From positions 4,511,748 through 4,575,747 of the forward strand of contig NZ_CP036266.1 in assembly GCF_007744075.1 (NCBI RefSeq): a stretch of 64,000 nucleotides of DNA, given 5' to 3'. This document shows positions 32,649 to 42,155 of this stretch, one piece after another. Below the pieces are notes generated by a model, which worked only from the letters and a program-made list of their open reading frames with translations, made no database searches and was not told the DNA's origin. The position numbers and the translations under genes were made by a program. This stretch comes from Gimesia chilikensis. GTDB taxonomy: Bacteria > Planctomycetota > Planctomycetia > Planctomycetales > Planctomycetaceae. Each line of letters begins with the position of its first letter. Positions within the stretch are counted from its first letter, which is position 1.

Positions 32649-33449
32649 GTGAAATCCCAACACAAGTATCAATACCTCGTCGTCTTTCTGACGCTGACTG
32701 TAATCGGTTTCAGCAGGCTGAGTTCAGTTCATGCCCTGGAATTAACGCTCGAACCGCCGGGAGATCGTGAATTCGTTCGCGATCTGGCCGGCATGATCGA
32801 TGAACCGACCAAGAAACAGATCCAGGAGATCTGCGATAAGCTGCTTACCGATAAGGCGACGCCGATCATTGTTGTCACCATCGATTCGATGGCCAAGTAC
32901 GGCGGCGCTGATATGCGGATCGAAACGTTTGCTACGATCCTTTTCAACCAGTGGCAGATCGGACACGCTAAACTGAATGATCAGGACTGGAACACCGGCA
33001 TTCTGTTACTGGTGTCTAAAGATGATCGCAAGGCACGCATTGAGCTGGGAGCCGGCTGGGGGCGGGAAGACGATGCCAAGTGCCGTGAAATCATGGACGA
33101 CTATATTATCCCCCATTTCAAACAGGGACAGTTTTCACAGGGAATTCTGGCGGGCGTCGAAGCCCTTGATAAAATGGCGCGCAAGCTGGCAATGCCTGCC
33201 AAGCCACAATCTGCCTGGAGCTACGTCATCATCGCAGTTGTGATTGGGCTGGCCATTTTTACCATCGTCTCTTTAATCCGCCGCGGATCCAGTGGCTGGG
33301 CCTGGCTATTCTGGGGCGTTATCTTTGCGGTGATCGGCACGATTCTCTACCAGATGCTCACCAACCGGGGAGGTGGAGGAGGCGGTTTCAGTGGCGGCTC
33401 ATTCGGAGGTGGCTTCTCCGGTGGTGGCGGTGCCACCGGCTCGTGGTAA
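32649..33449 (+). CDS. TPM-domain membrane protein with Gly-rich tail
   Basis: 266 aa starting at GTG, 52 bases after the PQQ gene. A signal peptide (about 1-29, ending in VHALEL) leads to a TPM domain at about 37-185: FVRDLAGMIDEPTKKQIQEI, IIVVTIDSM, GILLLVSKDDRKARIELGAG, IIPHFKQGQFSQGI. Two membrane segments follow (about 190-212 and 218-236), then a Gly/Ser/Phe-rich tail (GGGGGGFSGGSFGGGFSGG). This is the YgcG-type layout. TPM domains have been linked to photosystem repair and phosphatase activity in plants, but their role in bacteria is unclear. The next TPM gene starts 43 bases on. Confidence 0.88.
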   Translation: MKSQHKYQYLVVFLTLTVIGFSRLSSVHALELTLEPPGDREFVRDLAGMIDEPTKKQIQEICDKLLTDKATPIIVVTIDSMAKYGGADMRIETFATILFNQWQIGHAKLNDQDWNTGILLLVSKDDRKARIELGAGWGREDDAKCREIMDDYIIPHFKQGQFSQGILAGVEALDKMARKLAMPAKPQSAWSYVIIAVVIGLAIFTIVSLIRRGSSGWAWLFWGVIFAVIGTILYQMLTNRGGGGGGFSGGSFGGGFSGGGGATGSW

Positions 33450-33492
33450 CCAGATCGTTATTCCCCAGTTTCCAGATCGAAAGCTCATTTCC

Positions 33493-34170
33493 ATGCAGAG
33501 CGCATTTAACTTTTTAACCGGAGAACAACAGAAGCAGGTTGAGCAGGCCGTTGTTGATGCCGAGGGTAAAACATCCTGTGAGATTGTCCCCGTACTGGCA
33601 ACCACGTCAGGTCGCTACGATCGTCCGGAGGACGTTGTGGGGCTCTGGTTGACCGTTATCACAGCACTGGGCTTCTGGTATTACTTTCCCCGGGTTCAGG
33701 GACCGGCAGGTGACTGGGGTGGTTTACCCGTCGTTGTCGAACTGATTCTGGCAGCCCTCGCGATGGTCATCGCGTTTATTCTGGGAGCGATTGCCGGAAG
33801 CCGCATCGGCTGGCTTCGTCGTCTGTTTACACCCCGCCAACAGATGCAGGATGAAGTCGCCGCTCGTGCCCGGGAGATCTTTTTCGATAAGCGCGTACAT
33901 CATACCGAAGGGGGGACCGGAATACTCATCTACATCTCCCTGTTTGAACATGTGGCAGTAGCACTGGCTGACCAGGCGGTCATCGACAAACTGGGGCAGA
34001 CTTTCATTGATCAGATCTGCCAAAAACTGACAGCAGGTCTCCACTCAGGGAAGGCAGCTGAAACGATCTGTGAAGTCATTCGAGAAATTGGCGACGAGGC
34101 AGCGACGCCCCTGCCTCGTGCCTCAGACGATAAAAACGAACTGCAGGATACCCTGGTTCTGATTGACTGA
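33493..34170 (+). CDS. Second TPM-domain membrane protein
   Basis: 225 aa. The start is the ATG at 33493, because translation from an upstream frame (33373) would overlap the Gly-rich tail of the previous gene out of frame. The domain opens FNFLTGEQQKQVEQAVVDAEGK with TSCEIVPVLATTSGRYDR, but two membrane segments (about 58-74 and 86-108) are then inserted before EIFFDKRVHHTEGGTGILIYISLFEHVAVALAD, where the TPM fold resumes. It is thus a split version of the domain beside the simpler paralogue. No signal peptide. It probably forms a complex or functional pair with its neighbour. Function unknown. Confidence 0.8.
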   Translation: MQSAFNFLTGEQQKQVEQAVVDAEGKTSCEIVPVLATTSGRYDRPEDVVGLWLTVITALGFWYYFPRVQGPAGDWGGLPVVVELILAALAMVIAFILGAIAGSRIGWLRRLFTPRQQMQDEVAARAREIFFDKRVHHTEGGTGILIYISLFEHVAVALADQAVIDKLGQTFIDQICQKLTAGLHSGKAAETICEVIREIGDEAATPLPRASDDKNELQDTLVLID

Positions 34171-34256
34171 CAAAGCCCCAAGGTAGACAACTGATGTAAG
34201 CCATTAAATATTCGTCAGTTGCAACTTAACGGCTGTCGACTTCCTCGGAAAACTGG

Positions 34257-34262
34257 TATAAT
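34257..34262 (+). promoter_or_regulatory. Extended -10 promoter of the small coiled-coil gene
   Basis: A perfect TATAAT preceded by TGG (TGn) gives an extended -10 element, with TCGACT at 34236-34241 as a weak -35 at a short spacing. The start site would fall near 34269, about 80 bases before the ATG. Confidence 0.6.
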
Positions 34263-34348
34263 GTCAGTAGTGAGCTGTTAAAACTAAGCAAGAATCAATC
34301 TGACCCATTGATCTTTGTTTTCAAGATAATGATCCAAAGTAAGGAACC

Positions 34349-34615
34349 ATGACCATGACTAACCGCAATCGCATGGAAGAACTGATTGGTGCTCTGCAAC
34401 AGCAACGCGATGAGCTGGCCCTGAAAATTCATCTGGGAAAGAAGGAAGCACAGGACGAGTGGGAGCAGGTCACCGGTCGGTTTGATAAACTGAAAGACGA
34501 TTATAAACCGATGAAAGATGCCGTCTCGGAATCAGCGGGCGGAGTAGCAGATGCGCTGTGGAATGTCGGCAAAGAGATCCAGGAAAGCTTCCAGCGAATT
34601 CGTAAGTCACTCTGA
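34349..34615 (+). CDS. Small soluble coiled-coil protein of unknown function
   Basis: 88 aa, charged and almost entirely helical (MEELIGALQQQRDELALKIH, EQVTGRFDKLKDDYKPMKDA), ending in a C-terminal amphipathic helix (GGVADALWNVGKEIQESF). No signal peptide, membrane segment or recognised domain. It has its own promoter with a perfect extended -10 at 34257-34262 and an AAGGAACC ribosome-binding site, so it is probably well expressed. An ATG one codon pair downstream (TNRNRM) is also possible. The pattern recalls small helical stress or apolipoprotein-like proteins, but I do not recognise the family. It ends 7 bases from the convergent sulfatase gene. Confidence 0.72.
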   Translation: MTMTNRNRMEELIGALQQQRDELALKIHLGKKEAQDEWEQVTGRFDKLKDDYKPMKDAVSESAGGVADALWNVGKEIQESFQRIRKSL

Positions 34616-34622
34616 TCCTGAT

Positions 34623-36410
34623 TTATTCAGGTAATGCTTTGAGCCAGATTGAATTCAGTCGCAGTCCCTGAATCCCCTCAGGGGCGGCGGCACGAATTGT
34701 AAGCTTCTGTTTTCCCTGAGACAGATCCAGTGTCCCAGCTATGTTTTTCATGAAGACATTCTGACTGGTCGTCATGGGGAGCTTACAACTCAGACTCTGA
34801 TCCCCCGCTGTCAGAAGCAGAGTTCCGCTTGTCGCGGGTTCTGAACGATACCCATAGCTGAGTTCGACCTCATAACGGCCTGGCTTTAGTACGTCCAGCT
34901 GCCAATGAGCGGTAGTCTTGTTGGATTTCCAGCCATCTAGGGTATCCCAGTCATACCCGTCGAACGAATACTCGAGTCCGTCACCATCAATGATGGCCCA
35001 GCTCGGCTGTAACTCGACGACAGTTTCCGTAGGATCTCCCACAGGTATCGCAGCCGGCTGATATTCCTGCCCCCGGGTCACATCATCGAACCAGCGGTGA
35101 AACTCATTTCGCAGGCGGGAAGCCTCTTCGGGGTATTTCCGGGAGACGTCCTTGGTCTCACCTGGATCTGCTGTGAGGTCATACAACTGACCAGCCGGCT
35201 CCTGCTGTTTCTTTTTGCCTTGAGGATCGTGTCCTACCAGCTTGAACCGTGGACCATGAATCGACCAGCGATGCCAGGGGTTCGGTGTGTAACGGTCCCA
35301 GGTGTGATACAGGTACTCGTGAGGCGACTCACCTCCCCCCTGCTGCATGAGAGAGAGGATGGATTTTCCATCAAGGTCAACACCTTCGGGAATACTGACT
35401 CCCGCCAGTTCGCAGAACGTGGGAAACAGATCAATCTGAGCCACCAGCGCGTCGGTCTGTTTTCCTGCTGGAATCTGACCGGGCCAGCGGACGACGAAAG
35501 GCACTCGAGTCCCCCCTTCATAGGCACTCGCCTTGCTCCCTTTCAGGCCCGCCTTGAACGCCTTACTGACGCCTCCATTATCGCTGGTATAAATCACCAG
35601 CGTCTCTTCATCCAGTCCCTGTTCCTTCAGCATTTTGAACAATCTATCGAGATTTTGATCGATGCGTTCCACCATTCCGTAGATGCGTGCTTCTCGGAGA
35701 GGAAGCCCCTTGGCGAGGTATTTCTCAATCAGCTTGTCCCCCTCGGGTTGACCGAAGTGAGTTGTATCCAGGAGAAAGGGGGAGTGTGGTGCATTGAAGG
35801 CCAGAAAACAGAAAAAGGGTTGCTGCTGGTCGCGTTTAATAAAATCGATCGCCGCTTCGGTAAACAGATCCGTAACATAGCCGCGCGTTTCGACCGGTTG
35901 CCCGTTTACCACCACCTGATCGGGGTTGGAATAGCGTTCGATATGACCATGGTAATGACCGAAGAAATGATCGAAACCCCGCCGGTGCGGCTGATATTGA
36001 GAATAACGTCCGAGATGCCATTTTCCGAACAGCGCCGTTCGATAGCCGGCTGATTTCAGAACCTGTGCGATCGTCGTTTCATTCCGCCCCAGCGTATCAC
36101 CACCAAAGCGGGTGTTATAAAGTCCGGTCCGCAGATAATGTCGCCCTGTCATCAATCCGGCGCGTGTGGGAGCACAAACCATGTTTGCATGGAAGTGTGT
36201 GAACGTGACCCCTTCCGCCGCCATCTGTTTTAAAGCAGGCGTTTCAATGTGAGGGTTACCAGCAACTTCCGTGTCCCAGTATCCCTGGTCGTCGGCCATA
36301 ATCAGCAGGATATTGGGGCGCTTGGTTGGTTCCTGTGCCTGGGCATCATTCAGAGACATCAGACAGCTCAGACCCAAAACCGCAGTCAGGAGGAAACGTC
36401 GTATTTTCAT
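34623..36410 (-). CDS. Secreted arylsulfatase-family enzyme with C-terminal beta domain
   Basis: 595 aa. The signal peptide (RRFLLTAVLGLSCLMSL, ending QAQ) precedes an S1-type sulfatase domain (about 30-440). RPNILLIMADDQGYWDTEV provides the metal-binding Asp pair, and CAPTRAGLMTGRH near 83 has the C-x-P-x-R motif, whose Cys is converted to formylglycine. Then GKWHLG and YTSDNGG follow, the latter with Asp/Asn metal ligands. Residues about 470-595 are a beta-rich module (GRYEVELSYGYRSEP), perhaps for substrate binding. It hydrolyses sulfate esters outside the cytoplasm; a maturation enzyme must be encoded elsewhere. Last gene of the operon that begins with the DJ-1/PfpI gene. Confidence 0.94.
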   Translation of the reverse strand: MKIRRFLLTAVLGLSCLMSLNDAQAQEPTKRPNILLIMADDQGYWDTEVAGNPHIETPALKQMAAEGVTFTHFHANMVCAPTRAGLMTGRHYLRTGLYNTRFGGDTLGRNETTIAQVLKSAGYRTALFGKWHLGRYSQYQPHRRGFDHFFGHYHGHIERYSNPDQVVVNGQPVETRGYVTDLFTEAAIDFIKRDQQQPFFCFLAFNAPHSPFLLDTTHFGQPEGDKLIEKYLAKGLPLREARIYGMVERIDQNLDRLFKMLKEQGLDEETLVIYTSDNGGVSKAFKAGLKGSKASAYEGGTRVPFVVRWPGQIPAGKQTDALVAQIDLFPTFCELAGVSIPEGVDLDGKSILSLMQQGGGESPHEYLYHTWDRYTPNPWHRWSIHGPRFKLVGHDPQGKKKQQEPAGQLYDLTADPGETKDVSRKYPEEASRLRNEFHRWFDDVTRGQEYQPAAIPVGDPTETVVELQPSWAIIDGDGLEYSFDGYDWDTLDGWKSNKTTAHWQLDVLKPGRYEVELSYGYRSEPATSGTLLLTAGDQSLSCKLPMTTSQNVFMKNIAGTLDLSQGKQKLTIRAAAPEGIQGLRLNSIWLKALPE

Positions 36411-36450
36411 GAAAACAGCCTCAGTCTTGGTGTTGAGTCGCGATTGCGGT

Positions 36451-37392
36451 TCATGTCTGTTTCAGACAGTTCTCCAGATAGGCGCGAGAGCGGTTGATCT
36501 CAGCCGTCACCTGTTCCGCGGTAGGCAGAATCGGAATTCCGCGGGGTACGGGATGCATGAAGATTTCGGTTCGTCCCTGGTAGTTGATCTTTTTGAGCGC
36601 TGCGAGAACGGGAACAAAATTCAGATCACCGCGACCGGGCAGTTGCAGTAGTTCCTGTTCCTTGGGCAGTTTCTTAATACAGCCCATGCCGTGTTGCCAG
36701 GCCTGGAAGTGCACGAGCCGTTCATTCAGATCTTGAATCAGCCGGGCCATCATCTCCGGATCCTGTTCCAGATGATAGGGAGCCAGCGCGATACCGAAGT
36801 TTTTCGCTGGCAGCATTTCCATCAGCCAGAGTTGTGTATCCGGATCATTGATTAATCCACCGCCATGATTCTCCAGGCCGACAATGACGCCCTTCTCGGC
36901 AGCAGCATCGACATGCGGTTTCAGCTTTTCGGCAAACTTTTTAATCGCTGCTTTGAGTTCGGCTCCTTTCAGACCTTTGGGGCCACCGCTGTTACAGATC
37001 ACCATATCACCGCCCAACTGCTTGACCAGGTCCATTTCGCCCTGCATGTTGAACAAGCCGTACTTGAAACAGGTAAAACTGCCCAACTTAATGTTGTATT
37101 GATCAAACAGCTGCTTTGTCTTTTCGACGCCCAACTCGTCAATCTGTTCGCGCTGGTTCCCGTGCCGTTTCGCCCAGATCTCGAGATATTGCGCTCCGGT
37201 TTTAGGAGTTTCCTGCAGAATCGTTTCCAGGGGGAGTGTCCCATACATGCAGGAGGCAACGATGTAGTTCAGTTGAAACGGCTTTGGCGTTTTTTTCGTC
37301 CCCGCAGCCAGAGTGTTGCCAGCCAAAGTAGCTGCACAAGCTGTTCCCAGCAGTTGTTTATTAAAAACGCGACGAGTGATCTGTTCGTGCAT
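36451..37392 (-). CDS. Tat-exported sugar phosphate isomerase/epimerase-like protein
   Basis: 313 aa. A twin-arginine leader (ITRRVFNKQLLGTACAATLA) is followed by a xylose-isomerase-type TIM barrel: LPLETILQETPKTGAQYLEIW, GDMVICNSGG, VIVGLENHGGG with metal-ligand Glu, and FQAWQHGMG. A barrel strand near the end contains GRTEIFMHP. Such Tat-exported barrels are frequent in planctomycete carbohydrate operons; they probably isomerise or epimerise a sugar acid or lactone in the periplasm. 40 bases upstream of the sulfatase gene and 36 after the dioxygenase gene, on the same strand. Confidence 0.85.
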   Translation of the reverse strand: MHEQITRRVFNKQLLGTACAATLAGNTLAAGTKKTPKPFQLNYIVASCMYGTLPLETILQETPKTGAQYLEIWAKRHGNQREQIDELGVEKTKQLFDQYNIKLGSFTCFKYGLFNMQGEMDLVKQLGGDMVICNSGGPKGLKGAELKAAIKKFAEKLKPHVDAAAEKGVIVGLENHGGGLINDPDTQLWLMEMLPAKNFGIALAPYHLEQDPEMMARLIQDLNERLVHFQAWQHGMGCIKKLPKEQELLQLPGRGDLNFVPVLAALKKINYQGRTEIFMHPVPRGIPILPTAEQVTAEINRSRAYLENCLKQT

Positions 37393-37428
37393 CGGTCTGT
37401 CTTTCTAAAGTTCTATTTCACCAATTGA

Positions 37429-38187
37429 TCAGGATACCACGCGGTCCCCACCTTTAAGGAACGGTACCGCCAGATGCTTGGGCTGACCGGTTTCCGGATC
37501 AAAAATTGGTTCCGGTGAATATTGGGTGACGTACGCCCGACGCATTTTATCGGTCGTATTCGCGCCACTGCGATGGAAGGTGAGAGAACTGAACACAGCC
37601 AGGCTCCCTGCGGGAACGACTGCAGTGACTCCCGGTTCCTTACCGAAGTAGCCGGTTTTGTCCCCGGTTTCAGGATCCCGAATGTGCTCCACTAAGGAAC
37701 GGATACCAACCTTCGAAAAGGGTAACACATCAACGGTTCCGTTTTCCACGGTCATATCATCTACGGCCGCCCAGACCGTCACATAGGGACGATGATTGAA
37801 CCCCAGGTAGCCAGAATCCTGGTGCCAGGAAAACTTGATCCCCTTCTCCGCCGCTTTGACAACGTACTGATCGTAAAACAGATACGCTGTGTCTCCGATG
37901 GTGGCCTTACAGATTTCCGCCATCAGATCGCCAAACACATACTCAGTCAGACGTGGCGCCTGATCGTATTTTTTCGCGATGTGGTAACGTTTGCCTCGAT
38001 GGCTGATATGAATATGGTCTGTTCCCAACCGATCCATTTCCTGATGCATCAGATCGATCAGATGAGCACAGGAATCCCGAATGATCTGCAGATCCTCTTC
38101 GGGGATGACCTTTTCCAGAATAAAATATCCCTCTTCCTCAAACTGCCGTTTATGCTCTTCCGTGATGATCCCTGTGGAAACCGACAT
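37429..38187 (-). CDS. Phytanoyl-CoA dioxygenase-family oxygenase
   Basis: 252 aa, a 2-oxoglutarate/Fe(II)-dependent dioxygenase of the PhyH family. The iron site is readable as H-x-D in [12 protein letters not shown] near 121-123, and a distal His in [16 protein letters not shown] near 206, with Arg shortly after in [10 protein letters not shown] as the 2-oxoglutarate contact. No signal peptide, so it works in the cytoplasm. PhyH enzymes hydroxylate lipids, sugars, quaternary amines and small metabolites. In this operon a sugar-derived or osmolyte substrate is most plausible, though unproven. A good AGGAG precedes the ATG at 38187. Confidence 0.9.
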
Positions 38188-38251
38188 GATTGCTCCTGGT
38201 CGTAGAAAAACGGGACAGGCGAAACTTGTTTAACGCTCAACTGACTACGGT

Positions 38252-39580
38252 TCAGGAATCAGTGATTTCGTAACCTTTTCTCTGCTCACGTTTGAGCCAC
38301 GTGTTGGCTTCGTCATCTCCCACAAACAGTTCCTGTTCGGGATCCCAGGTCAGCTTACGCCCCAGGCGTTGAGAGATATTGCCGATATGACAGACTGAAA
38401 CCGAACGGTGCTGATTCTGCACACTCGAGATCGGAGTTTCGCGAGATTCGATACAGTCGAAGAAATTGCCCATGTGATTGACAATCGCATCCAGTTTGCC
38501 CATCCGGGGAGGTCGGGAAAGATTGTCGTGAGCATAGACATTAAACTTTTCGCGGGGCAGCGGATTCTGCTTCAGATCCTCGACGGGTTTACCGGCGATC
38601 GTCCCGCGGTTTACAAACATTCGTCCCTCGTCACCTTCAAACATGACGCCGGTTCGTCCGGTGTCATTGACTTCCAGAATCACCCCGTTGGCATAGCGGG
38701 CCTTCAAATGGTAGTCGAGTGCAACATTATAACCGTTTTCGACATTCGGAAATGTAGCGGTCCCTTCGATATCCACAGGACCAGTATCCTGCATCCCGGC
38801 TCCCCACTGGGCGATATCAATGTGATGCGCGCCCCAGTCGGTCATCTGGCCCCCCGAATACTCATACCACCAGCGGAACGTATAGTGACAACGTTCCTTG
38901 ATGTAAGGCACATCGGGAGTCTGCCCCTGCCAGAGATCCCAGTTTAAGACTGAAGGGACAGGCTCCGGTTTGAAGGGACCACCCGTTTTGTTTTTACTGA
39001 GCGTGACGGTCACCTTCTTCAGGTTGCCGATGCGTCCGTCATGTACCATTTCGACAGCCTGACGGAAACGATGATCGCTTCGCTGCCAGGTTCCGACCTG
39101 TACGACTGCGTTGGTATCTTTGACAACCCGGTTCAGGATCTTACCTTCATCTACGGTCAGTGTGAGTGGCTTTTCACAATAGACGTCTTTCCCGGCCCGG
39201 CAGGCATCGATCAGCATTTTAGTATGCCAGTGATCGGGTGCGCCGATCGTCACGACATCAATGTCGGCCTTTTCGAGCATCTCACGGTAATCTTCAAACA
39301 AAATCGCTTTCCCGCCAAACTGCTTGCGGGCCTTCTGCGCGATCTCTCGATCCACGTCGGCTATCGCCACGATATCGCCATATTCCTGAGCCTTATCTGC
39401 GATAACCGATCCCTGGTAACGCATACCAATGGAACCAATCTTTAAACGCTCATTCGGGTTCCGCGACTTTTGAGCAGAGCGTGCCGTATTTACGAATACG
39501 CCCGGTGCCAGACAGGCGAGTGGCAGACCGGCTGCAGAGGTTTTCAGAAATGATCGACGTGTCAGTTTCCGTGAAGTCAT
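38252..39580 (-). CDS. Tat-exported Gfo/Idh/MocA-family oxidoreductase
   Basis: 442 aa from the ATG at 39580, which follows a strong AGGAGAG. A twin-arginine leader (KLTRRSFLKTSAAGLPLACL) leads to a Rossmann domain beginning LKIGSIGMRYQGSV, then the family signature CEKPLTLTVDEGKILN near 137 with its catalytic Lys, and a C-terminal alpha/beta domain with the conserved WGAHHIDIAQW. It oxidises or reduces sugar-like substrates with a tightly bound NAD(P) carried through the Tat pathway. A TTG 24 bases upstream is in frame but less likely. Fifth-from-last in the operon order: after DJ-1/PfpI and before PhyH. Confidence 0.92.
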   Translation of the reverse strand: MTSRKLTRRSFLKTSAAGLPLACLAPGVFVNTARSAQKSRNPNERLKIGSIGMRYQGSVIADKAQEYGDIVAIADVDREIAQKARKQFGGKAILFEDYREMLEKADIDVVTIGAPDHWHTKMLIDACRAGKDVYCEKPLTLTVDEGKILNRVVKDTNAVVQVGTWQRSDHRFRQAVEMVHDGRIGNLKKVTVTLSKNKTGGPFKPEPVPSVLNWDLWQGQTPDVPYIKERCHYTFRWWYEYSGGQMTDWGAHHIDIAQWGAGMQDTGPVDIEGTATFPNVENGYNVALDYHLKARYANGVILEVNDTGRTGVMFEGDEGRMFVNRGTIAGKPVEDLKQNPLPREKFNVYAHDNLSRPPRMGKLDAIVNHMGNFFDCIESRETPISSVQNQHRSVSVCHIGNISQRLGRKLTWDPEQELFVGDDEANTWLKREQRKGYEITDS

Positions 39581-39624
39581 TACACTCTCCTGTTGCGCTG
39601 GCAAGATTGGTTATTGAATTCAAA

Positions 39625-40188
39625 TCAGAACTGGCTCTGGGCTTCATCCAGCATTTTCATCCAGGGCCCCATATAGTGTCCGTGGTCATGGTAGGTACGA
39701 CCGCTGACAAGATTCCCGTCAATCACACAGGGCTCATTAACGAAAATGCCGCCACAGACTTCCAGATCAAACTGGCACTTAGGCACAGTGGCCATCCGAC
39801 GTCCTTTGACACACCCGGCCCGCGCTGGAATTTCTACTCCATGACAGACGGAAGCGATCGGCTTTCCGGTTTCGAAGAAGTGCTGGGTGATGCGGATCAG
39901 ATCCTCGTCGTCGCGAATGTACTCCGGCGCACGTCCACCACTGAAGAAGATACCCAGGTATTCTTCTTCTTTGATATCTTTGAAGGCAATATCTGCTTCG
40001 ATCGAATACCCTTCCCATTCTTTGGTGATGGTCCAGCCCGGTTTGACTTCATGCAATACCATCTGGTACCGCCGTTTTTCGGGAGCTGCGACGACAGGTT
40101 CATAGCCTCCCTCAATCAGGCGATAGTAGGGATACAGCGTATCGACAGTTTCTGTGGCATCACCAACGATGATCAGCACTTTGTTCAT
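39625..40188 (-). CDS. DJ-1/PfpI-family protein
   Basis: 187 aa, a single DJ-1/PfpI domain. VLIIVGDATETVDTLYPYY opens the fold, GIFFSGGRAPEYIRDDEDLI gives the conserved Gly-rich turn and acidic pair, and ASVCHGVEIPAR near 115 has the nucleophile-elbow Cys in C-H-G. The family includes glyoxalases, deglycases, amidases and proteases. In a carbohydrate operon a glyoxalase-like or deglycase role is attractive but not established. AAAGGAAAG precedes the ATG at 40188. First gene downstream of the XylR-like regulator (165-base gap holding two palindromes), so it likely leads the operon. Confidence 0.9.
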   Translation of the reverse strand: MNKVLIIVGDATETVDTLYPYYRLIEGGYEPVVAAPEKRRYQMVLHEVKPGWTITKEWEGYSIEADIAFKDIKEEEYLGIFFSGGRAPEYIRDDEDLIRITQHFFETGKPIASVCHGVEIPARAGCVKGRRMATVPKCQFDLEVCGGIFVNEPCVIDGNLVSGRTYHDHGHYMGPWMKMLDEAQSQF

Positions 40189-40200
40189 TCAAGTCTTTCC

Positions 40201-40212
40201 TTTTACGTAAAA
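40201..40212. promoter_or_regulatory. Palindrome near the operon's first start codon
   Basis: TTTTACGTAAAA is perfectly self-complementary and lies 13-24 bases before the DJ-1/PfpI ATG. It overlaps the region immediately upstream of the ribosome-binding site and may be an operator. Not matched to any known regulator. Confidence 0.4.
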
Positions 40213-40283
40213 TATGATCTTCGAACGGGAATTAATTTTACGAGGGATCCCCTCCCCGTCATTACGGATTCCCATAAACATTA

Positions 40284-40319
40284 TCAGGTTTTGCGTATCA
40301 ATTCACAATTGTGACCTGA
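40284..40319. promoter_or_regulatory. Nested inverted repeat between regulator and operon
   Basis: TCAGGT (40284-40289) and ACCTGA (40314-40319) flank a central perfect palindrome, TCACAATTGTGA at 40303-40314. The region is about 95-130 bases before the DJ-1/PfpI start and after the XylR-like stop, suitable for an activator site. Candidate only. Confidence 0.45.
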
Positions 40320-40353
40320 AAATGTTCCGGAATCCTGTCAGTAAAGCGTTATT

Positions 40354-41511
40354 TCAGTGCATTTTAGAACGATAGGAGCCCGGCGTTTCCCCCAGTTTCT
40401 CCTTGAATATCGTGCTGAAATGCTGCGCGTGACGAAATCCGACGCGTTCTGAGATCTGTGCCAGAGACAATTCGGTCGATACGAGCAGCTCTTTGGCCCG
40501 TTCCAGCTGATTGCGGAGAATCTCTGCTTTGGGAGAACGTCCAATGGCCGCTTTCATCTGTCGTTCCAAAGCGGTTCGAGACAGCGGAACCTGTTTGAGA
40601 ATATCCCCCACCTGAATTCCACGACAGGCATTTTCGCGTATAAACCGCAGCGCCATGGCCAGTTCCGGATCATCCACGGCGACGACATCAGAAGACTGAC
40701 GTGTCACAATTCCCAGGGGATCAATCATGAACGGTTCTTCCGGGACTGGCTCCCCCTGCATCAATCTGCTCAACAACGCTGCCGCCTCGTAACCAATCCG
40801 GGCTGAGTTGAAGGCCACACTCGAAAGTGGCGGCCGGGCCATCATGCAGAGGATCTCGTCATTTTCGACGCCCACCACGGCCACCTCATCGGGAACCGAG
40901 ATTCCCGCCCGGTCACAGGCATCCAGCAGCCAGAAACCGAGTTGATCGGTACATGCCATGATCCCCACCGGCTTGGGGAGACCACGTACCCAGTTTGCCA
41001 TCTGTTCCTGGTGCTTCTCCCATTCGCGAGGGGCCTCCGAATCTTCTGCCGCGGAAAACACACTCACTTCGTAACCCGCCTGCTGGATCGTTTGAATGTA
41101 ATTGTCCCTGCGTTCTTCAAAATAGACTTCGATACCGATTTCATAGACACCGAAGTGACGAATCCCGCGCTCGAGAAAATGCTCAGCAACCAGACGTCCC
41201 ATGGCCCGGTTATCGATCCCCAGAAACGGAAAGGCATGCTTAAGCTTCGTCGACCGCAGTTCAACGGTGGGAATCCCGGAAGCGGTGATCGCGTCGGCCA
41301 TTTCCTGGCTGGTCGTTCGACTGAGAATTCCATCCCCTTTCCAGCGGGAGAGCCAGTCCGGAATCTGAGAATCCAGGGAACGGGGCATCAGAAACACAGA
41401 CCACTCTTCATTCTCAGCGATAAACTGCCGAATGCCGTTCAACAGCCCGCGCCCATGGGAGCGGGAGGTTTCAATCAGCAGTGCTACGTGGGGAATAGAT
41501 GAGGAAGTCAT
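40354..41511 (-). CDS. XylR-like AraC-family transcriptional regulator
   Basis: 385 aa. The N-terminal two-thirds is a LacI/periplasmic-binding-protein-like sensor (HVALLIETSRSHGRGLLNGI, PFLGIDNRAMGRLVAEHFLERG, GIMACTDQLGFWLLDA, VAVVGVENDEILC). The C-terminal 100 residues are an AraC DNA-binding domain with two helix-turn-helices (VGDILKQVPLSRTALERQMK and LSLAQISERVGFRHAQHFST). This is the E. coli XylR architecture, which senses a free sugar and activates its operon. It sits directly upstream of and on the same strand as the five-gene sulfatase/oxidoreductase cluster, which it most likely controls. Inducer unknown. Confidence 0.92.
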   Translation of the reverse strand: MTSSSIPHVALLIETSRSHGRGLLNGIRQFIAENEEWSVFLMPRSLDSQIPDWLSRWKGDGILSRTTSQEMADAITASGIPTVELRSTKLKHAFPFLGIDNRAMGRLVAEHFLERGIRHFGVYEIGIEVYFEERRDNYIQTIQQAGYEVSVFSAAEDSEAPREWEKHQEQMANWVRGLPKPVGIMACTDQLGFWLLDACDRAGISVPDEVAVVGVENDEILCMMARPPLSSVAFNSARIGYEAAALLSRLMQGEPVPEEPFMIDPLGIVTRQSSDVVAVDDPELAMALRFIRENACRGIQVGDILKQVPLSRTALERQMKAAIGRSPKAEILRNQLERAKELLVSTELSLAQISERVGFRHAQHFSTIFKEKLGETPGSYRSKMH

Positions 41512-41696
41512 GTGATCAGCAAGCAGATGTTGTCAGCGGAATATTTCAAGAAGGAGTCAAAAGACACTTAATCTTTTACCGGAACGCCGAAATCTATTCA
41601 ATCAAGATCGAAACAGTTCAGATGAGATCGTACAATAGGCTTCAGTATCTCAGCCCCGGATTCTCTGAAGAAAAGCGACAATGAAAGGCTTTTGGA

Positions 41697-42155
41697 TTGT
41701 ATAAGATTAAACTGGCTCAACCGGGTCATTTTCTGGATGTAGCAGCCTTGGACCGTATCGCCTGGCCCGACGAGCCGGACACCTACATTCCCGATGGTGA
41801 GCATGCCTGGCGACTCTGGTGTGAGTATGCAACGGTTCTGATTGCCGTGGAGTCGCAATCAGATCAAAGAGAACTCGTGACAGGGACGCTCTTAATGTTT
41901 CCTACTAATACCAGTGAGATTTTTCTTCACAAAATCATGGTCCACCCCGATTATCGCAGCAAGGGAATCGGCTCGGCCCTGATGCAGCAGGCACTGCAAG
42001 ACGCACAAGACGTCGTTCTGCTGACCGTGAATCCGGAAAACACCCCCGCAGTCAAACTCTACGAAAGCTTCGGATTCAATGTTCGTACCCGGGTAGAGGG
42101 CTACTATCGCCCACATGAGCATCGTCTGATCATGGAATTCCAACCGACCACTTAA
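41697..42155 (+). CDS. GNAT-family N-acetyltransferase
   Basis: 152 aa. The acetyl-CoA-binding motif A is clear: IFLHKIMVHPDYRSKGIGSALMQQALQDAQ appears as the pieces IMVHPDYRSKGIGSALM near 80 with R-x-x-G-x-G. It is followed by VVLLTVNPENTPAVKLYESFGF, the motif B element. The start is a TTG at 41697 preceded by AAAGG; a stop codon (TGA) closes the frame just upstream at 41682-41684, so no ATG can serve. The substrate (protein, amine or metabolite) is unknown. Only 22 bases separate it from glpD. Its 5' region holds a short overlapping frame, not annotated. Confidence 0.87.
   Translation: MYKIKLAQPGHFLDVAALDRIAWPDEPDTYIPDGEHAWRLWCEYATVLIAVESQSDQRELVTGTLLMFPTNTSEIFLHKIMVHPDYRSKGIGSALMQQALQDAQDVVLLTVNPENTPAVKLYESFGFNVRTRVEGYYRPHEHRLIMEFQPTT

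Follow-up and report, generated by a model that had tools for sequence, protein, structure and literature searches.

Six adjacent genes of the marine planctomycete Gimesia chilikensis probably constitute an operon, and its core may serve the use of a particular sugar. The genes lie in a 64,000-nucleotide stretch of the genome (NZ_CP036266.1, positions 4,511,748 to 4,575,747), hereafter the window. The core of the predicted operon comprises a XylR-type regulator (REG), a DJ-1/PfpI-family protein (DJ1), a Gfo/Idh/MocA dehydrogenase (GFO), and a xylose-isomerase-like TIM-barrel enzyme (ISO). We give a probability of about 45% to the reading that this core is a dedicated sugar-utilisation system controlled by REG, in which GFO and then ISO act in sequence, possibly by way of a 3-keto sugar. 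The two other genes encode a PhyH-family dioxygenase (PHYH) and a sulfatase (SULF). Judged from the sequence, the six-gene set is probably a real operon, made up of a recurrent core and accessories. To our knowledge, nearly all planctomycete sulfatase and Gfo/Idh/MocA genes are without an assigned substrate. The small recurrent set described here, parts of which are found in many related bacteria, ties one sulfatase, one dehydrogenase, one TIM-barrel enzyme, one PhyH protein, and one DJ-1 protein to a regulator of their own, and thus provides a tractable entry point: there are five enzymes to purify, and the inducer of REG would name the sugar.

All six genes are on the minus strand and run from position 41511 to 34623 of the window in the list of open reading frames (ORFs):

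40354..41511, minus strand: REG, XylR-type regulator, 385 amino acids (PF13377, PF12833, PF00165)
39625..40188, minus strand: DJ1, DJ-1/PfpI-family protein, predicted cytoplasmic, 187 amino acids (PF01965)
38252..39604, minus strand: GFO, Gfo/Idh/MocA dehydrogenase with a signal resembling those of twin-arginine translocation (Tat), 450 amino acids (PF01408, PF19051)
37429..38187, minus strand: PHYH, PhyH-family Fe(II)/2-oxoglutarate dioxygenase, predicted cytoplasmic, 252 amino acids (PF05721)
36451..37392, minus strand: ISO, xylose-isomerase-like TIM-barrel enzyme with a Tat-like signal, 313 amino acids (PF01261)
34623..36410, minus strand: SULF, S1-type sulfatase with a C-terminal extension, predicted secreted, 595 amino acids (PF00884; signal peptide by eye)

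REG and DJ1 are separated by 165 bases, and the following gaps are 64 bases between GFO and PHYH, 36 between PHYH and ISO, and 40 between ISO and SULF. The listed start codon of GFO is TTG, with an in-frame ATG eight codons downstream, so that the gap between DJ1 and GFO is 20 or 44 bases. The coordinates fit the original prediction, made from the letters of the window, of a same-strand run in which a 165-base leader is followed by gaps of 36–64 bases, if the ATG start of GFO is used. The Pfam domain matches agree with the family names of all six genes. In REG, Peripla_BP_3 (PF13377), a periplasmic-binding-protein-like sensor, is fused to an AraC-type helix-turn-helix domain (PF12833), which is the architecture of XylR-type AraC regulators; its score against PBP1_XylR (PF22177) is 23.7 bits, under the cut-off of 27, and we do not call it a xylose regulator. 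DJ1 matches the wider DJ-1_PfpI family (PF01965) and scores 122.6 bits against the PfpI/YhbO deglycase model TIGR01382, under the cut-off of 139.05. The twin arginines of the putative export signals are invariant: R16R17 in all 25 aligned GFO sequences and R7R8 in all 26 aligned ISO sequences. No signal sequence has been seen by eye in PHYH or DJ1. These motifs fit the predicted Tat export of GFO and ISO, and the proposal of a regulator-led run that mixes exported with cytoplasmic enzymes agrees with the domain, motif, and co-inheritance evidence.

Distribution of the gene set within and beyond the genus

The order of the run is kept in all 16 other genomes of the genus. DJ1, GFO, PHYH, ISO, and SULF are present in every one of these loci, some of them clipped at contig ends, and REG in 13; the other three loci (L036, L041, L045) are short contigs that end before REG. 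The mean identity of full-length copies to those of the window is 94.0% for DJ1, 92.7% for GFO, 92.5% for PHYH, 90.6% for REG, and 88.2% for ISO. The corresponding value for SULF, 80.5%, is close to those of two genes that flank the run, GNAT (80.6%) and glycerol-3-phosphate dehydrogenase (82.5%). Therefore, SULF evolves at about the pace of its surroundings, and the other five genes are more constrained. Synteny across the genus extends to the GNAT, glycerol-3-phosphate dehydrogenase, and TPM-domain genes that flank the run, so that conservation at this level adds little and the telling comparison is with genomes of other genera. Extra bases are found between ISO and SULF (526–609 in L036, L038, L041, L043, and L044), between GFO and PHYH (403–444 in L037, L043, and L046), and between REG and DJ1 (1627 in L043 and L046). 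The last two loci carry, between REG and DJ1, a 382-residue gene with a metalloprotease-like HEFGHALGLPH motif (L043:12872-14020 and L046:13406-14554), the L043 copy of which has no NCBIfam match.

The search covered 198 genomes of the class, 188 from outside the genus and ten from the genus itself. Orthologues were delimited by cut-offs set after inspection of the match lists: rows down to E 1.3e-150 for GFO (57 rows, 56 genomes) and down to E 5.3e-122 for REG, both among the matches listed, at least 69% identity for DJ1, and at least 55% identity for SULF. Orthologues were counted as a cluster if neighbours were separated by less than 4 kb, whatever their strand, so that other genes may intervene. 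The ORFs of the neighbourhoods were picked longest-first, and some shadow ORFs replace real genes.

Outside the genus, orthologues of DJ1 occur in 51 genomes, of ISO in 42, of PHYH in four, and of SULF in three, and, among the matches listed, those of GFO in 46 and of REG in 15. There are 30 clusters of at least two of the six orthologues, in 28 of the 188 genomes and in six families. REG, GFO, ISO, and DJ1 stand together in eight genomes from only two genera (G040, G049, G057, G066, G080, G084, G103, G116); in G066 and G084, REG and GFO are 1.6 kb apart, with intervening genes. The other arrangements are permuted: REG-DJ1-GFO in G099, GFO-DJ1 with a divergent REG in G090 and G147, GFO-ISO-DJ1 in G129, G171, and G191, ISO-DJ1 in G019, G147, and G151, and DJ1 with a divergent REG in G173. 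DJ1 orthologues in other genera are 69–86% identical to that of the window, and in other families, relatives of REG with 48–59% identity have GFO, ISO, or DJ1 nearby. Both GFO and ISO are present in 31 of the 188 genomes (odds ratio 24.6, p 2.6e-15, relatedness ignored, GFO among the matches listed) and are adjacent in 18. This distribution indicates that the conserved core is REG-GFO-ISO-DJ1, and that PHYH and the sulfatase are recurrent accessories. It is extremely improbable that the genes are held together by inherited synteny with no shared function. The syntenic flanking genes of the genus are what such an explanation would predict; however, the clusters are permuted in six families, and the flanking genes of the window, searched for in the out-of-genus loci, are absent among the matches listed.

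The gene order that the original prediction proposed to look for in other planctomycetes is found throughout the genus; outside it, the clusters are only partial. Scattering of the genes in relatives, which had been named as a ground for refutation, is not seen for the core, which is co-inherited beyond the genus, and is seen in part for the accessories, PHYH being apart from both GFO and ISO in 14 of 39 out-of-genus loci. The view of the six genes as one pathway set stands for the core; however, the set is not indivisible, since PHYH has orthologues in 14 and SULF in 13 of the 198 genomes.

Ten of the 14 genomes with a PHYH orthologue belong to the genus. All 14 contain ISO and 13 contain GFO; in G097 and G175, PHYH is adjacent to neither. 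A PHYH-anchored scan of a species-level genome collection yielded 47 loci: six from the genus (L050-L055), 40 from elsewhere, and one distant paralogue (L096, 21% identity). L095, with a partial PHYH and with GFO and ISO nearby, was excluded, which leaves 39 out-of-genus loci, two of which (L059 and L081) are from the same metagenome-assembled genome (MAG). In 25 of the 39, GFO and/or ISO lie less than 3 kb away on the same strand, and both do so in 12. PHYH is therefore linked to the core but is also found alone or in other company. Its out-of-genus planctomycete copies are 65–80% identical to that of the window. In genome G133, the gene after a GFO orthologue (66% identity) is of the PhyH family (L116:7738-8610) but only 23% identical to PHYH of the window; PhyH may therefore have been recruited twice.

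SULF matches PF00884 with 226.3 bits, and its best solved chain is the kappa-carrageenan sulfatase S1_16 (9fo1). As in S1 sulfatases, it has a formylglycine motif of the CxPxR type (CAPTR at residue 79), which is kept in six aligned orthologues. The window genome contains 109 PF00884 matches, some of which are pieces of one gene, or about a hundred sulfatases; therefore, a nearby sulfatase alone is weak evidence. Out-of-genus SULF orthologues (55–58% identity) are found in G164, G097, and G135; the one in G164 (55%) directly follows GFO-DJ1, and those of G097 and G135 are unlinked to the set. A second, non-orthologous subfamily, SULF-B, has 44–82% mutual identity and is 25–28% identical to SULF of the window. 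In L056, L069, L074, and L078 it adjoins PHYH, in L076 it separates PHYH from ISO, and in L112 it separates GFO from ISO. L083, L090, and L114 have sulfatases of other kinds close to the module. Of the candidate substrates suggested in the original prediction (a sulfated, methylated, or hydroxylated sugar or lactone), a sulfated one is backed by the occupation of the sulfatase slot by two subfamilies.

Leader and regulation

Two conserved blocks flank REG:

40258..40297, minus strand: 40-base block in the REG-DJ1 leader, conserved and probably an operator/promoter (same-genus leader alignment)
41571..41640, minus strand: second block, conserved on the upstream side of REG, which may be its promoter or a site of autoregulation (same-genus alignment, extent by eye)

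The 40-base block is conserved in 12 same-genus leaders, that of the window included, and its flanks are variable. The alignment was made without L043 and L046, in which REG and DJ1 are 1.6 kb apart, and the upstream sequence of L054 is too short to judge the second block. A sigma-70-like match (40308-40280) runs into the 40-base block; counts of promoter-like and of terminator-like consensus sites are no higher than in shuffled sequences, and the sole minus-strand terminator-like site of the scanned stretch falls inside SULF. When up to three mismatches are allowed, a 20-base portion of this block is found at one site in the 8.29 Mb genome and a reversed-pattern control at two. The search thus revealed no further members of a regulon, although a more degenerate operator would escape it. 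The simplest reading of these matches is that REG has one main target.

A motif, TGAYAANATA, is present in nine of 14 leaders from other families, compared with an average of 0.06 in random stretches. It was picked after the leaders had been viewed, L095, L051, and a REG-upstream stretch were left out, and some of the leaders are closely related, four of the nine (L099, L101, L103, L104) coming from two genera. In L106 (G171:C71), a GFO-ISO-DJ1 cluster with no adjoining REG keeps the shared leader motif; the REG gene of that genome is on a different contig, together with another ISO-DJ1 pair.

Predicted chemistry and competing explanations

The EKP motif of GFO (E144, K145, P146) and its D..HH residues are invariant over 25 sequences, as expected for the Gfo/Idh/MocA family, and its nearest solved chains by profile are 8tdf (118.7 bits) and 8tdh (116.4 bits). 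The window genome has dozens of Gfo/Idh/MocA candidates, 52 among the matches listed. In ISO, E174, N175, H176, H207, and E276 are invariant and H234 is kept in at least 90% of the 26 aligned sequences. The AlphaFold2 model of ISO (pLDDT 89) places E174-N175-H176 at the end of the strand 170-174. Xylose-isomerase-like sugar epimerases bind their metal with a Glu-Asp-His-Glu tetrad. Profile searches of the PDB with ISO gave only weak, epimerase-type matches, and in these alignments (TM_0416, MJ1311, IolI, D-tagatose 3-epimerase) the tetrad is incomplete: Ala204 is at the position of the strand-6 Asp, and Tyr/Gln230 at that of the strand-7 His. For 3-keto-glycoside beta-eliminases such as AtOGE, CGE, and LgdB, a ligand-x-His on strand 5 and additional metal ligands on strands 6, 7, and 8 are expected. 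Because E174-N175-H176 is kept while the strand-6 and strand-7 ligands of epimerases are replaced, an eliminase or hydratase is, by an argument from motifs, an attractive candidate assignment for ISO and a plain epimerase less so. A 2-hydroxy-3-keto-glucal hydratase, AtHYD (8ro4), appears at rank 49 of the Foldseek matches of ISO. A DUF1080-type hydratase is not a fixed partner of the set: none is present in the run of the window, and neighbours in L069, L093, and L110 resemble one by eye.

The gene set, its order and recurrence, the catalytic and export motifs, and the leader block are observed directly, and a pathway can be proposed from them. SULF, to judge by its family and motif, would strip sulfate outside the cytoplasm. 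GFO, exported by the Tat route with its nicotinamide cofactor, could then oxidise a ring hydroxyl, by analogy that at C3, and ISO, also exported, may act on the keto sugar at a metal site by elimination, hydration, or epimerisation. The product would enter the cell, where it might be oxidised by PHYH in a reaction that uses Fe(II) and 2-oxoglutarate, and where DJ1 might handle or detoxify reactive dicarbonyl intermediates. REG would sense the sugar of the pathway and, as the conservation suggests, act at the leader block. In its widest form, the proposal is of a route not described before and common among planctomycetes that salvages sulfated, perhaps also O-methylated, glycosides without glycoside hydrolases, through desulfation, C3 oxidation by a Tat-exported enzyme, metal-dependent periplasmic elimination, cytoplasmic oxidation by PhyH, and removal of dicarbonyls by DJ-1 under one XylR-type regulator. 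That all of these parts are correct is unlikely.

Besides the synteny of the flanking genes, several observations weigh against a dedicated, REG-controlled sugar operon. No transporter gene lies within the six-gene run. The leader of the window is without TGAYAANATA even at one mismatch and carries only TGATAATGTT. Only one of the 30 out-of-genus clusters has a SULF orthologue, neither GFO nor ISO is near PHYH in 14 of the 39 out-of-genus loci, and clustering is incomplete for the core (21 of 51 genomes for DJ1, 24 of 46 for GFO, and 22 of 42 for ISO). The best Foldseek matches of ISO are sugar 3-epimerases. The top NCBIfam model of GFO, the BT_2158 glycoside 3-dehydrogenase (NF058561), is matched with 143.2 bits, under the cut-off of 750, and four other planctomycete Gfo proteins have the same top model with 118–325 bits. 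The likeness of GFO to BT_2158 was therefore rejected as specific evidence, as it is generic among planctomycete paralogues.

Three other assignments of the enzymes have been weighed. In the first, GFO would form a lactone by oxidising an aldose at C1, the ring would be opened by a lactonase, and ISO would isomerise or epimerise the sugar or sugar acid; the oxidative catabolism of L-fucose or rhamnose is a comparable lactone route. The hint of a lactone substrate is backed by an L-fuconolactonase-family amidohydrolase (one sequence cluster) directly upstream of GFO in L058, L059, L067, and L073; the copy in L059 scores 248 bits against the L-fucono-1,5-lactonase model, whose cut-off is 400. 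Moreover, a PHYH relative (52–55% identity) in L094, a Gemmatimonadetes MAG, is near a sodium:solute symporter (SSF), a Gfo gene, an amidohydrolase, and an enolase-superfamily gene. However, neither the window nor the other clusters inspected contain such an amidohydrolase, the four loci have the same type of neighbourhood and may represent a single lineage, and Ala204 and Tyr/Gln230 of ISO speak against a plain epimerase. This route has a real but minor chance of being the correct one.

In the second, GFO would form a 3-keto glycoside, ISO would epimerise it, and a second dehydrogenase would reduce it, as YcjS, YcjR, and YcjQ of E. coli are described to do (PMC11543891). The ISO profile finds a 3-keto-D-glucoside 4-epimerase (6wn6) at E 0.062; however, the match is not significant, D-tagatose 3-epimerases score better, and the second dehydrogenase is absent from the run, which makes such epimerisation of a rare sugar quite unlikely.

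In the third, PHYH would be an oxidative O-demethylase of methylated, sulfated sugars that releases formaldehyde to a tetrahydromethanopterin (H4MPT) C1 pathway, and GFO and ISO would process the demethylated sugar. The HxD...H triad of PHYH (HQD 122-124 and H205) is invariant over 28 sequences, and its structure model (pLDDT 87) has PhyH-type fold matches. The closest solved folds are MysH, SnoN/SnoK, and EvdO2, among which are glycoside and mycosporine tailoring enzymes. A gene for formylmethanofuran dehydrogenase subunit B is divergent from PHYH-SULF-B in L069, L074, and L078, and its L069 and L074 copies exceed the TIGR03129 cut-off; however, the three loci are relatives, with SULF-B 71–82% identical. 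The gene family occurs in at least 159 of the 198 genomes at E 1e-60, at least 106 of them over the cut-off and the genus itself under it. Co-occurrence with the C1 pathway is therefore uninformative and was rejected as support for demethylation. The neighbourhoods hint weakly at a methylated substrate, and a demethylase role of PHYH is improbable.

The sequential action of GFO and ISO in a REG-controlled operon is the reading that we prefer. Other features of the loci are recorded here. In L058, L067, L071, L073, and L076, ISO or DJ1 has a PhoD-like phosphatase gene downstream of it (one cluster, of which the copy in L067 was scanned), and L121 has a gene that is similar by eye. Among the matches listed for formylmethanofuran dehydrogenase subunit B, 37 near-full-length ones have exactly one in-frame TGA (for example G083:C267:48773-50023 and G198:C4:28947-30203), which in these planctomycete C1 enzymes looks like a selenocysteine codon. 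The GNAT and glycerol-3-phosphate dehydrogenase genes of the window were rejected as members of the operon because they are on the opposite strand. Two overlapping ORFs at 32649-34170 of the window, the second with a TPM domain, are convergent to SULF and present in 12 of the 16 same-genus loci. No Rfam family matches positions 34000-42000 at gathering scores.

Comparison with known systems

The original prediction did not recognise the combination of PhyH and DJ-1 with a sulfatase, and no description of it or of the whole gene set was found in the open-licence literature, a scope outside which most subscription papers fall. The individual steps have parallels. LgdA of the levoglucosan pathway and YcjS of E. 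coli are both Gfo-family enzymes. The pairing of a sugar dehydrogenase with a TIM-barrel enzyme that handles 3-keto sugars has precedents in the levoglucosan (PMC7676230) and ycj (PMC11543891) pathways. In the degradation of levoglucosan, LgdA oxidises C3, LgdB1 eliminates, and LgdB2 hydrates, and both LgdB proteins are annotated as sugar phosphate isomerases (PMC7676230). The run of the window resembles LgdA-LgdB1-LgdB2-LgdC of Bacillus smithii in that C3 oxidation, here proposed, would be followed by an enzyme of an isomerase-annotated type (same source). Unlike the levoglucosan pathway, the run has Tat-like signals on the dehydrogenase and the TIM-barrel enzyme, one TIM-barrel enzyme instead of two, and no reductase, and it adds PhyH, DJ-1, a sulfatase, and a XylR-type regulator.

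Nasseri and colleagues are said to have described, in Nature in 2024, a B. thetaiotaomicron pathway with a BT_2158-type glycoside 3-dehydrogenase. The NCBIfam model of that enzyme is the top one for GFO; however, the score of GFO falls far short of the curated cut-off, and other planctomycete Gfo proteins show the likeness as well. The E. coli ycjQRS genes likewise pair a dehydrogenase with an epimerase/isomerase that act on 3-keto-glucosides; by contrast, the run of the window has no counterpart of the ABC transporter, the phosphorylases, the second dehydrogenase, or the LacI-type repressor of the ycj cluster (PMC11543891).

The phlorizin pathway of Agrobacterium offers a parallel for ISO. 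Its Mn-dependent TIM-barrel eliminase AtOGE has the strand-5 metal ligand His132 two residues before the catalytic His134, and the matching ligand of CGE is Glu (PMC10628242); this strand-5 ligand-x-His arrangement is comparable to E174-N175-H176 of ISO. The same pathway has a putative hydratase, AtHYD, of the same fold group; its first oxidation, however, is by the flavoenzyme GlycDH and not by a Gfo enzyme (PMC10628242). The strand-6 and strand-7 ligands of ISO differ from those of the phlorizin enzyme, and a sulfatase and PhyH are present only in the G. chilikensis run. SULF, for its part, resembles the kappa-carrageenan sulfatase S1_16 in its domain family and its CxPxR formylglycine motif.

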